Notes under the pieces: model-generated
Databases searched by the model: none
What the model saw: the letters and a program-made list of their open reading frames with translations, nothing else
What the model was told of the DNA's origin: nothing
Program-made: the position numbers and the translations under genes
Part shown: piece after piece, positions 29,128-31,876 of the stretch
How the letters are laid out: every line of letters begins with the position of its first letter
How positions within the stretch are numbered: position 1 is the stretch's first letter
From: Prochlorococcus sp. AG-347-I06
GTDB taxonomy: Bacteria > Cyanobacteriota > Cyanobacteriia > PCC-6307 > Cyanobiaceae
Assembly (NCBI GenBank): GCA_003281605.1
Contig: QCBM01000003.1
Span: 62,001-126,000 of the forward strand
DNA length: 64,000 nt
Reading direction: 5' to 3'

Positions 29128-29862
29128 TCAATTAAATCTTTTTGCAAGAGCAATTGGATCGAATACTGTGATCTTTTTTCTTTCAATGTTAAGAAGCCCT
29201 GAATCCTTTAAATCTCCCAATAATCTTGTAATGGTTACTCTTGTAGATCCAATAGCTTCAGCAATCGCCTGATGTGAAAGCCTTAGATCTATTGTAATAC
29301 CTTTTTCACCTGCAACTCCAAAGTCTCTACAAAGAACCATTAAAAAACTTACTAAACGAGAAGACATATCTCTGTGTGTAAGGGTTTCTATCATTGTTTC
29401 AGTTTGCAGGATCCTACTAGAAAGACCCTGTAACAAAAGCAATCCTACTGATGCATCTTCCTCTATAGCTCTTAAAACAGAATTTGCAGGTGCTGTTATC
29501 ATTTCAACTCTTGTGAATGCTATCGCATGGTAAAAACGATCAGATCTATGGCCTGTTAGAAGAGATAAAACACCAAAGAGACTATTCTCTCTTAAAAGAG
29601 CAACAGTTATTTCTTCACCTGACTCATAAACTCTTGAAAGTCTTACTGCACCTCTTCTTATGAGATAAACTCTTTCTGCAGGGTCCCCGGGGAAAAATAT
29701 TGTTTTAGATCTCTCAACCATTTCTGTGCTTGCTCCATCTAGACCTTTAATCACTTCCATTAAAGTTCTATTAATTGGAAAACGTTCTCCAACAGAATTG
29801 ATTTTACTTTGTCCTGACTTTTGCGAACTAAAGCGGTTGAATCCTCGTGAAGCAGGTATCAT
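29128..29862 (-). CDS. ntcA: global nitrogen regulator NtcA
   Basis: NtcA is the CRP-family activator of nitrogen genes, sensing 2-oxoglutarate with help from PipX. Its 244 residues include a cyclic-nucleotide-like barrel (about 50-140), the long dimer helix, and a C-terminal helix-turn-helix at 196-218 ([21 protein letters not shown]) typical of NtcA. The N-terminus is [14 protein letters not shown], somewhat longer than in freshwater relatives. An NtcA-type promoter precedes it, indicating self-regulation. A likely target, amt1, is in the same window. Confidence 0.97.
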
Positions 29863-30062: not shown

Positions 30063-30644
30063 ATGGTAAATAGTTCATCCCATATTTATTCCAAAGGTAA
30101 TCTTGATGTTGTAAATATAAATACTGCTAACAAAATTAACGGAAAAAGATATGCGCAAAATGGGCAAATTCAAATTTATCAATCATCATACCGAGGAAGT
30201 TACCCATCTATCATTAGAGACTCTCTAAGAAATGCTGCTCTTGGCAGGAAAGTGCTTTTAATACAATTTATGAGAGGAGGAGTCAAGCAAGGAATTGATA
30301 ATGCAGTAAAACTATGCGGTAATCTAACCTGGGTAAGATCATCACATTCCTTTGATCAATACAATTCTGAAGAAATTGAAAATAATAAAAATTTAAAAAA
30401 ATCTATCCATGAATCTACTTTTGAATTATGGAATTTTTGCAAAAAAAAACTACAGTCTGGGGAGTATGAACAAGTTATACTTGATGAAATTTTTTTAGCT
30501 ATTGACATGAAAATTATCGATAAAGATGATTTGATTTCAACACTTGAAAACCGATTTATATCAGGAGATGTAATCCTTACTGGTACAGATATACCTAAGG
30601 ATCTATTATTAATGGCCAACCAAATTACTGAACTTCGCTCATAA
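30063..30644 (+). CDS. CobO/CobA-like corrinoid adenosyltransferase homologue with lost P-loop
   Basis: A 193-residue protein whose body follows the ATP:corrinoid adenosyltransferase (CobA/CobO/BtuR) family: GRKVLLIQFMRGG (61-73), a Walker B-like VILDEIFLAI (138-147) and a GTDIPKDLLLMANQITELRS end (174-193). The P-loop of the family (GNGKGKTT) should fall at about 38-52. There the sequence reads YQSSYRGSYPSI, with none of the Gly-Lys-Thr residues. ATP binding in the normal way therefore looks lost. It starts the dcd-thyX run and is divergent from ntcA. A new role is possible. Confidence 0.7.
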   Translation: MVNSSSHIYSKGNLDVVNINTANKINGKRYAQNGQIQIYQSSYRGSYPSIIRDSLRNAALGRKVLLIQFMRGGVKQGIDNAVKLCGNLTWVRSSHSFDQYNSEEIENNKNLKKSIHESTFELWNFCKKKLQSGEYEQVILDEIFLAIDMKIIDKDDLISTLENRFISGDVILTGTDIPKDLLLMANQITELRS

Positions 30645-30648
30645 AACA

Positions 30649-31242
30649 ATGCTAAAGAATGATCTCTGGATAAATCAAAAAGCCTCGGAAGGAATGATAC
30701 AGCCCTTTCAATCAAATTTAGTGAGGCATCTTGAACCTGACAATAAACAAAAGCCTGTTTTGAGTTACGGATGTTCATCCTATGGATATGATTTAAGACT
30801 TTCATCAAAAGAATTCCTGATTTTCAGACATATCCCTGGGACTGTGATGAATCCCAAAAAATTTAATCCTAATAATTTAGAAAAAACTGTTCTTCACCAT
30901 GACAATGATGGAGACTTTTTTATTCTTCCTGCTCACTCCTATGGTTTAGGAGTAGCTTTAGAAAAGATGAAAGTACCGGAAAATATAACTGTGATCTGTA
31001 TAGGTAAAAGCACTTACGCTCGACTAGGAATTATTGTTAATACGACACCTGCAGAAGCAGGATGGGAAGGGCATCTAACTTTAGAGTTTAGTAATAGTTC
31101 TGGTGCAGATTGCAGAATTTATGCAGAAGAAGGTATTTGCCAACTACTCTTTTTTGAAGGTGATCCATGCTCTACAACCTATGAAGATAGAAGAGGTAAA
31201 TATCAAAACCAACCAGAAAAGGTGACTTTAGCGAAAATCTAA
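30649..31242 (+). CDS. dcd: dCTP deaminase
   Basis: Dcd turns dCTP into dUTP, the route to dUMP for thymidylate synthesis. The 197 residues hold the trimeric dUTPase-like core: GKSTYARLGIIVNTTPAEAGWEGHLTLE at about 124-150, with the catalytic Glu in that stretch. Length is near the 190-residue norm. It sits four bases after the CobO-like gene and one base before thyX, and so is translationally linked to the enzyme using its product. Confidence 0.93.
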   Translation: MLKNDLWINQKASEGMIQPFQSNLVRHLEPDNKQKPVLSYGCSSYGYDLRLSSKEFLIFRHIPGTVMNPKKFNPNNLEKTVLHHDNDGDFFILPAHSYGLGVALEKMKVPENITVICIGKSTYARLGIIVNTTPAEAGWEGHLTLEFSNSSGADCRIYAEEGICQLLFFEGDPCSTTYEDRRGKYQNQPEKVTLAKI

Positions 31243-31243
31243 A

Positions 31244-31876
31244 ATGAGTAAAGTTGAACTAATTTCGCTAACTCCTGATGCAGAAAAAACAATGGCTTAC
31301 ATTGCAAGAGTTAGTAACCCAAAAAATCAGGAAAATGAAGACTACTCAAAATTATTGAGTTATTGCATTAAAAATGAACATTGGAGCGTTTTCGAACAAT
31401 CATTTATGACTTTACAAATAGAAACCAACAGAGGTATCGCTGCACAAATTTTAAGACATAGATCATTTACTTTCCAGGAATTTTCTCAGAGATATGCAGA
31501 TAGTTCGCAATTGGGAAATATTCCCTTACCAGAACTAAGGCGTCAAGATTTCAAAAATAGGCAAAATTCAATCCCTGATCTCCCTGATGAGTTAAAAAAA
31601 AGATTCAATGAAAAAATTGTTTTACATTTTCAGGCTGCATCAGAATTATATGAAGATTTACTCGCAGAAGGCGTAGCCAAAGAATGTGCAAGATTTGTTT
31701 TGCCATTAGCTACTCCAACAAGAATCTATATGAGTGGATCATGTAGATCGTGGATCCATTACATTAATTTAAGATCAGCTCACGGAACCCAAAAAGAACA
31801 CAAGTCTATCGCTCAGGATTGCAAGTCTATTTTTAAAAAAAGTTTTCCTATTGTATCAAAATCTTTAGGATGGTAA
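31244..31876 (+). CDS. thyX: flavin-dependent thymidylate synthase
   Basis: ThyX makes dTMP from dUMP using FAD, methylene-THF and NADPH. The 210-residue protein shows the diagnostic RHR-x7-S motif at Arg71-His72-Arg73 with Ser81 (RHRSFTFQEFSQRY), and a second conserved C-terminal patch, SGSCRSWIHYINLR. It follows dcd by one base. ThyX rather than ThyA is usual for Prochlorococcus. Confidence 0.97.
   Translation: MSKVELISLTPDAEKTMAYIARVSNPKNQENEDYSKLLSYCIKNEHWSVFEQSFMTLQIETNRGIAAQILRHRSFTFQEFSQRYADSSQLGNIPLPELRRQDFKNRQNSIPDLPDELKKRFNEKIVLHFQAASELYEDLLAEGVAKECARFVLPLATPTRIYMSGSCRSWIHYINLRSAHGTQKEHKSIAQDCKSIFKKSFPIVSKSLGW

Follow-up and report, generated by a model that had tools for sequence, protein, structure and literature searches.

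Class II ribonucleotide reductases (RNRs) make DNA precursors with a B12 cofactor, and how that cofactor reaches or leaves the enzyme is, to our knowledge, not known. The human adenosyltransferase ATR is of the PduO type. It offers a precedent from outside the RNRs: it both makes adenosylcobalamin (AdoCbl) and escorts it, as described in the available text of PMC8633584. The closest described relatives of the protein studied here are the adenosyltransferases of the CobA/CobO/BtuR family (PF02572). Trichodesmium and other cyanobacteria are described as having three btuR genes, one of which, coding for 178 aa, falls in a clade found only in cyanobacteria; differing adenosylation specificities were suggested for the copies, and the class II RNR NrdJ is mentioned separately (accessible part of PMC5816740). 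The family analysed below is most likely this Tery_2088 clade, with which it was matched by description. In the accessible part of that paper the copy is taken for an adenosyltransferase, with no word on a lost P-loop, on dcd or on co-occurrence with NrdJ.

In Prochlorococcus MED4 the NrdJ protein swings 8.5-fold over the day (available text of PMC3430701), and the genome of cyanophage P-SS2 lists a class II nrd gene, cobO, dcd and thy1 (available text of PMC2784084). A search of titles and abstract openings, with subscription journals mostly outside its scope, returned neither loss of the P-loop nor an association with NrdJ for this family, and a study of cyanobacterial gene essentiality (PMC5464585) contained none of the terms sought.

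A CobO paralogue without a Walker A loop

The window is the whole 64,000-nucleotide stretch of contig QCBM01000003.1 from Prochlorococcus sp. AG-347-I06 that was analysed. A preliminary description of it had singled out a CobO-like protein with a destroyed P-loop at the head of a dcd-thyX operon (table 1). The scaffold motifs on which that description relied (LLIQFMRGG, LDEIFLAI and the GTD...ITELR tail) are all present in the open reading frame, and the protein matches PF02572 over residues 33–192 (E 4.2e-21, 76.3 bits against a cut-off of 25.7), as do 28 of 28 members of set A1. The best curated model is NF005648 (E 1.6e-40); the score of 138.5 bits is below its cut-off of 248, and the protein was grouped with NF005648-type relatives by the tree. 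Members above the cut-off (L009–L038) align with it and also lack the loop, so the name of this model is misleading: the members examined have no P-loop.

Table 1. Coordinates of the window gene, its sequence motifs and its neighbours.
Feature	Position in window	Strand	Basis
P-loop-less CobO paralogue, 193 aa, ATG start	30063..30644	+	PF02572; closest curated model NF005648/PRK07414 'P-loop NTPase family protein'
Former Walker A loop, codons 41–48, SSYRGSYP where CobO has GNGKGKTT	30183..30206	+	Alignments
QFMRGG, codons 68–73, the QF-x-K-G motif common to CobO	30264..30281	+	K71 and G72 columns kept
W-V-R, codons 90–92	30330..30338	+	Invariant W90 and R92 in the P-loop-less clade, no more than 10% of CobO rows
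LDE, codons 140–142, retained Walker B	30480..30488	+	D141 and E142 100% in all three groups
dcd, dCTP deaminase, 4 bases downstream	30649..31242	+	TIGR02274, E 1.3e-34
thyX, FAD-dependent thymidylate synthase, 1 base after dcd	31244..31876	+	TIGR02170, E 5.1e-50
ntcA, divergent neighbour	29128..29862	-	TIGR03697, E 3.7e-110

When solved structures were searched with phmmer, Salmonella CobA was the sole convincing match (E ~1e-4). The alignment places the SSYRGSYPS stretch over the GNGKGKTT loop of CobA, in agreement with the preliminary description, and neither G-x4-GK[ST] nor GxGKGK occurs anywhere in the 193 residues. The AlphaFold model of the window protein, built from 28 close relatives only, reached a mean pLDDT of 65.2 and a pTM of 0.64 (the remaining four models had pLDDT values of 34–43). 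Given this moderate quality and narrow input, we make no claim about the geometry of the pocket. At the level of the fold, the best PDB matches of the model were CobA structures (1g5r/1g64/4hut; Z 12.0, rmsd 3.1 over 146 residues), followed by FtsY and FlaH/Get3-type proteins with Z near 8. Predicted strands end at residues 39, 68, 92, 141 and 173, so that many of the kept and newly fixed residues described below would lie on the edge that holds the active site in CobA.

Besides the window protein, the genome that carries the window (99.7% complete) encodes a CobO on contig C1 (216.7 bits) and, on C2, a protein with two domains, which makes three further PF02572 domains; their loops, GNGKGKTT, GEGKGKSQ and GEGKGKST, are intact. 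A second, intact cobO, which the preliminary description had proposed to look for, is therefore present, and the window gene is a third kind of family member rather than the only CobO of the cell. The two-domain protein belongs to NF005647/PRK07413 (tandem CobO hereafter), which is likewise a cyanobacterial PF02572 paralogue whose presence follows NrdJ; it differs in its two-domain build, and in the proteins examined each domain has an intact GxGKGK[ST] loop.

Loss of the loop across relatives

We aligned 154 relatives: 88 from Prochlorococcus, 20 from other members of the window's family and 46 from other cyanobacterial families. None of the 154 has a Walker A motif. The loop mostly reads SSYRGSY in Prochlorococcus and AP[FY]RGSF, or close to it, in other genera of the same family, and family f7 has forms such as SSHRNFFT.

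For a comparison of individual residues, 77 P-loop-less rows were set against 18 CobO sequences, with Prochlorococcus thinned to every tenth row; L183 was skipped by the trimming pattern, and L179, a decayed copy from genome G385, was left out of the alignment. Within the former loop, an arginine at position 44 is found in 97% of rows, and the clade has lost the Salmonella CobA positions G36, G38, K39 (to Arg), K41, T42, A44 and G47. At the position of Salmonella G40 the window's family has Gly, and 60% of the other rows have Asn. Also lost are E73, G88, D101, the arginine of the TGR motif (R161) and the His, Gly and Ala of the C-terminal tail. Fourteen CobO columns are kept (G34, R56, G61, V64, K71, G72, W123, L140, D141, E142, L161, T173, G174 and A185), with the AG-347-I06 protein itself carrying Arg in the K71 column. 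Eight residues are newly fixed in the clade (W90, R92, Q76, A58, L145, D169, Q187 and R192), none of which occurs in more than 10% of CobO rows; Arg at position 92 is also found in five of the six tandem CobO domains. The clade thus shares with CobA/CobO/BtuR its fold, its ancestry and the Walker B motif, and differs in the missing Walker A motif, the altered tail and the new residues. Two further positions concern the corrinoid side: the column equivalent to CobA F91 is Phe in Prochlorococcus and Arg in 93% of rows from other families, and the column equivalent to W93 is not Trp. F91 and W93 are corrinoid-facing residues of CobA. Judged by its sequence, the clade has probably lost ATP-dependent adenosyltransferase activity.

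Selection, phylogeny and origin

Of 200 Prochlorococcus genomes, 169 gave a copy of the gene, among them all 66 that are at least 90% complete. Across 76 distinct Prochlorococcus sequences, from which five of the 80 loci L039–L118 were left out because they fell outside the extraction rule, mean dN/dS was 0.19 overall, 0.13 for residues 33–193 (2850 pairs) and 0.08 for residues 40–60. The N-terminal 31 residues (30063–30155) have a dN/dS of 0.59 and were modelled with very low confidence. Presence in every near-complete genome of the genus, the absence of Walker A from all 154 relatives and the purifying selection on the core together rule out decay in a single strain or a sequencing error. 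Such a loss limited to this strain, or an intact loop elsewhere in the protein, would have gone against the preliminary description, and neither was found.

A tree of 69 sequences separates the 45 P-loop-less rows from CobO and tandem CobO by a branch with SH-aLRT 100, at a division where, as the tree program warned, long branches meet. The ATP loop was lost early in cyanobacterial history, and the loss was then kept. That it is old and spread over the class had been overlooked in the preliminary description.

Origins elsewhere were considered and rejected. All nine loci examined from other classes of the phylum have intact GxGKGK[ST] loops (seven read by pattern, L225 and L239 by translation). 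A tblastn search of a phage collection gave five records, all below 60% identity, with intact loops in the two that were examined (MT835487.1 and PSS2, with MT838865.1 left out); the best match, MT835487.1 (E 7e-6), has the loop GAGRGKT. The annotated phage match is the two-domain CobO of cyanophage PSS2 (GQ334450.1, 23802–24836; L332), with intact loops. From its gene list in the available text of PMC2784084, this phage appears to carry a version of the NrdJ/CobO/dcd/thy1 supply set without the P-loop-less protein. Gene fusions gave no clue to function: the reading frames in G288 and G229, the two covered by this reading (the G270 gene being uncalled), show only unproven N-terminal extensions. 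A decayed P-loop-less CobO with several stop codons lies beside rph in G385 (C1, 1599664–1600215; L221, L236 and L269); this genome retains NrdJ and tandem CobO, and dCTP deaminase gave no match in it.

Co-occurrence with ribonucleotide reductase

To analyse the distribution of the gene, 80 cyanobacterial genomes were chosen by hand from 386, 41 with the gene and 39 without; duplicates within a genus were cut among the latter, and carriers were picked to span families. Presence was set by a gap in E-values, the loop itself having been seen in the 154 aligned sequences rather than in every carrier. One of the control genomes that match the family is that of Synechococcus elongatus; the paralogue is expected there and in Anabaena PCC 7120. 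NrdJ (TIGR02505, E up to 1e-10) was found in 41 of 41 genomes with the gene and in 7 of 39 without it; 46 of these 48 pass the TIGR02505 cut-off, and the other two, the carriers G085 and G320, give fragmentary matches below it. The small subunit of class I RNR, NrdB (PF00268), showed the reverse pattern (0/41 and 32/39). dCTP deaminase was above its cut-off in 30 of the 41 carriers, the other 11 having none above it, and in 19 of the 39 non-carriers. With kinship ignored, Fisher's test gave p 7e-16 for NrdJ and 0.04 for dcd: NrdJ follows the window gene better than dcd does, a pattern that the preliminary description had missed. By genus, the gene accompanies NrdJ in 33; of the genera without the gene in this set, 19 have NrdB and 3 have NrdJ, and 2 genera are mixed. 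Genus g65 is counted as lacking the gene through G284, and its members G199 and G251 carry it. Both states occur in families f4, f11 and f16, whose NrdB genomes lack the gene. In eight genomes of the window's family, class II was the sole RNR found of the two aerobic classes searched.

Relatedness was addressed with an rpoB tree of 59 genomes, which remained of the 80 after removal of 20 duplicates and of G131, where rpoB gave no match at the limit used. On the best tree the gene needs 11 changes of state. Six well-supported independent pairs could be drawn, in which NrdJ agreed with the gene in 3.9 on average, opposed it in none and showed no difference in 2.1 (p 0.125); the direction is consistent, and the power of a test on six pairs is low. 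The same tree showed no trend for dcd (1.2 pairs the same, 0.9 opposite). The link of the window gene to NrdJ and dNTP synthesis is thus well supported in the raw counts and weakly supported once kinship is removed.

Among the 80 genomes, the gene occurs only together with NrdJ, and NrdJ can work without it, as seven of the 48 NrdJ genomes lack an intact copy (G054, G121, G326 and G368, all four of genus g29, and G284, G203 and G385). A divergent copy hidden in these genomes was sought with a query from family f12 and rejected; the strong hits were CobO or tandem CobO, with GKGK loops in the loci read by pattern, plus the decayed copy in G385. The association with NrdJ is closer for tandem CobO than for the window gene: tandem CobO is found in 41 of 41 genomes with the window gene and in 9 of 39 without it (two of the nine partial). 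All of the 48 NrdJ genomes except G203, where it is partial, have it at full length (47 of 48), whereas none of the 32 NrdB genomes does, G203 and G172 having partial copies. Its neighbours look membrane-protein-like by eye.

Some individual genomes deserve mention. G203 (f11) has both NrdJ and NrdB along with its partial tandem CobO, which could reflect a mixed assembly or a switch in progress. G051, a single contig that is 99% complete, has no match to NrdJ, NrdB, the class I large subunit or P-loop-less CobO, and retains tandem CobO without a detected RNR; G233, its near-identical sister by rpoB, has both NrdJ and the gene, so that in G051 either both were lost together or sequence is missing. 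In many cyanobacteria (e.g. G159, G121 and G135) long in-frame stretches, probably inteins, interrupt the matches to NrdJ, with frames of up to 1857 aa.

Genomic neighbourhood

Neighbourhoods were assembled from tblastn matches, with neighbours named by NCBIfam from one example each, and are reported as raw counts; the 20 loci of other families were picked by hand to span families. In the window the gene does head a run with dcd and thyX, all on one strand. dcd lies directly downstream in the same orientation in all 80 Prochlorococcus loci, in 20 of 20 loci from other members of the window's family and in 10 of the 20 from other families, an eleventh having dcd after a gap of 244 bases. thyX is downstream in 78 of the 80 Prochlorococcus loci and in 7 of the 20 other loci of the family. 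Among those other genera, two types of ThyX alternate after dcd (L148–L167), one of about 240 aa on the opposite strand and one of about 210 aa in the orientation of dcd; Prochlorococcus has the shorter. Outside the window's family, dcd, dut, a dCMP deaminase gene or thyX lies within 3 kb in 14 of the 20 loci, adk is upstream and divergent in 7, and rph is present in 9. Three loci without dcd (L193, L203 and L204) have dCMP deaminase and dut genes as neighbours, and four (L192, L198, L199 and L201) have none of dcd, dut, dCMP deaminase, thyX, adk or rph. In the eight NrdJ loci examined, no nrdJ lay near the gene, and clustering of their neighbours found none common to all eight.

The preliminary description had suggested a new role tied either to ntcA or to deoxynucleotide synthesis. 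The second part is supported, as a probable role; a link to ntcA is not. A divergent ntcA is found in all 80 Prochlorococcus loci and in all 20 of the other loci of the family, and in 0 of 20 loci of other families, so that among the loci read the adjacency was seen only within the window's family. Control by NtcA was likewise set aside: a scan for GTA-N8-TAC with one mismatch allowed found 231 sites in the window, where shuffles gave 207.8 +/- 12.4 and 2 of 100 shuffles reached as many, and nothing marked out the promoter of the window gene.

Possible functions of the P-loop-less protein

Our preferred reading, which we consider plausible and somewhat short of probable, is that the window protein is a non-catalytic, corrinoid-handling helper of NrdJ. 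RNRs of this kind (RTPR-type NrdJ) make deoxynucleoside triphosphates, for which dCTP deaminase is a natural next step. Because the CobO fold has lost chiefly its ATP side, the corrinoid side may be read as kept. Presence limited to NrdJ genomes, neighbours of the dUMP/dTMP branch, a corrinoid side that may be retained and the human ATR precedent together led us to the proposal. On this proposal, NrdJ, which depends on adenosylcobamide, is the most likely client of this CobO paralogue without an ATP loop. The paralogue would no longer make adenosylcobamide, and its conserved pocket might still hold a corrinoid, either adenosyl- or damaged pseudocobalamin. The protein would then hand the cofactor to NrdJ or remove cofactor that has been inactivated, and probable co-transcription with dcd and thyX could keep its level in step with dTTP synthesis. 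If so, it would resemble human ATR (MMAB) and the MeaB/MMAA escorts of methylmalonyl-CoA mutase in escorting AdoCbl to an enzyme (available text of PMC8633584), although these belong to an unrelated fold family and have another client enzyme. Several observations count against a helper of NrdJ: the seven NrdJ genomes that lack an intact copy, the six independent pairs to which the tree reduces the association, the altered F91 and W93 columns, the eight NrdJ loci without the gene nearby, and the NrdJ matches below cut-off in G085 and G320. Moreover, since tandem CobO follows NrdJ even more closely, the association could be one with the general supply of B12.

CobA pairs with itself, and the window protein could instead be a non-catalytic subunit of a heteromeric adenosyltransferase, pairing with CobO or tandem CobO and setting its activity or choice of substrate. 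Every one of the 41 carriers has tandem CobO, the window's own genome also has CobO, the predicted fold is that of CobA, and in G085 tandem CobO lies about 3 kb from the homologue of the window gene. Apart from G085, however, the neighbours in the loci read are mostly dNTP genes rather than other CobO genes, and tandem CobO persists in the seven NrdJ genomes that lack an intact copy; we consider such a subunit unlikely. The neighbourhood itself would be accounted for if the protein had nothing to do with corrinoids and were a regulator or partner of the dUMP/dTTP enzymes (Dcd, Dut, dCMP deaminase and ThyX), sensing a nucleotide or a protein through the old active site: dcd is directly downstream in 110 of 120 loci, and the three loci that have dCMP deaminase and dut in its place fit the same pattern. 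Set against this, dCTP deaminase is above its cut-off in about half of the non-carriers and not above it in some carriers, it lacks a trend on the tree, and NrdJ and NrdB split carriers from non-carriers far better. This regulatory role, too, we regard as improbable.

Continued adenosyltransferase activity, with ATP held in another way, for instance for a special corrinoid, would be in keeping with the Walker B Asp-Glu and the several other CobO residues that are kept, and protein products of all three Trichodesmium btuR copies are described in the accessible part of PMC5816740. The loss of G36, G38, K39, K41, T42, the R161 position and the C-terminal tail positions speaks for the opposite, as do loop sequences that differ between clades, as expected once ATP binding is no longer selected, and we hold this activity to be very unlikely. 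That the gene is a relict with no present function might be suggested by its loss or decay in some NrdJ lineages, but it is hard to credit at all, being already contradicted by the selection on the core and by the gene's presence in every near-complete Prochlorococcus genome.

Within the helper reading, the escort mechanism is conjectural. We suggest only tentatively that the protein is an adenosylcobamide escort or reactivase for NrdJ, which would make it the first dedicated cofactor helper of a class II RNR and a CobO descendant that no longer binds ATP. It is possible, and equally a tentative suggestion, that such a helper occurs in Prochlorococcus as in many other cyanobacteria and is probably transcribed together with the dTTP branch. 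What is new is the co-occurrence of P-loop-less CobO with NrdJ across the 80 cyanobacterial genomes. A conserved CobO descendant that lacks the ATP loop and follows NrdJ is a concrete, testable candidate for a cofactor helper. The finding also corrects annotation, as the extra 'adenosyltransferase' or 'P-loop NTPase' with which these genomes have been credited has no P-loop, and counts of btuR/cobO used to draw inferences on B12 cycling are affected by such misannotated copies.
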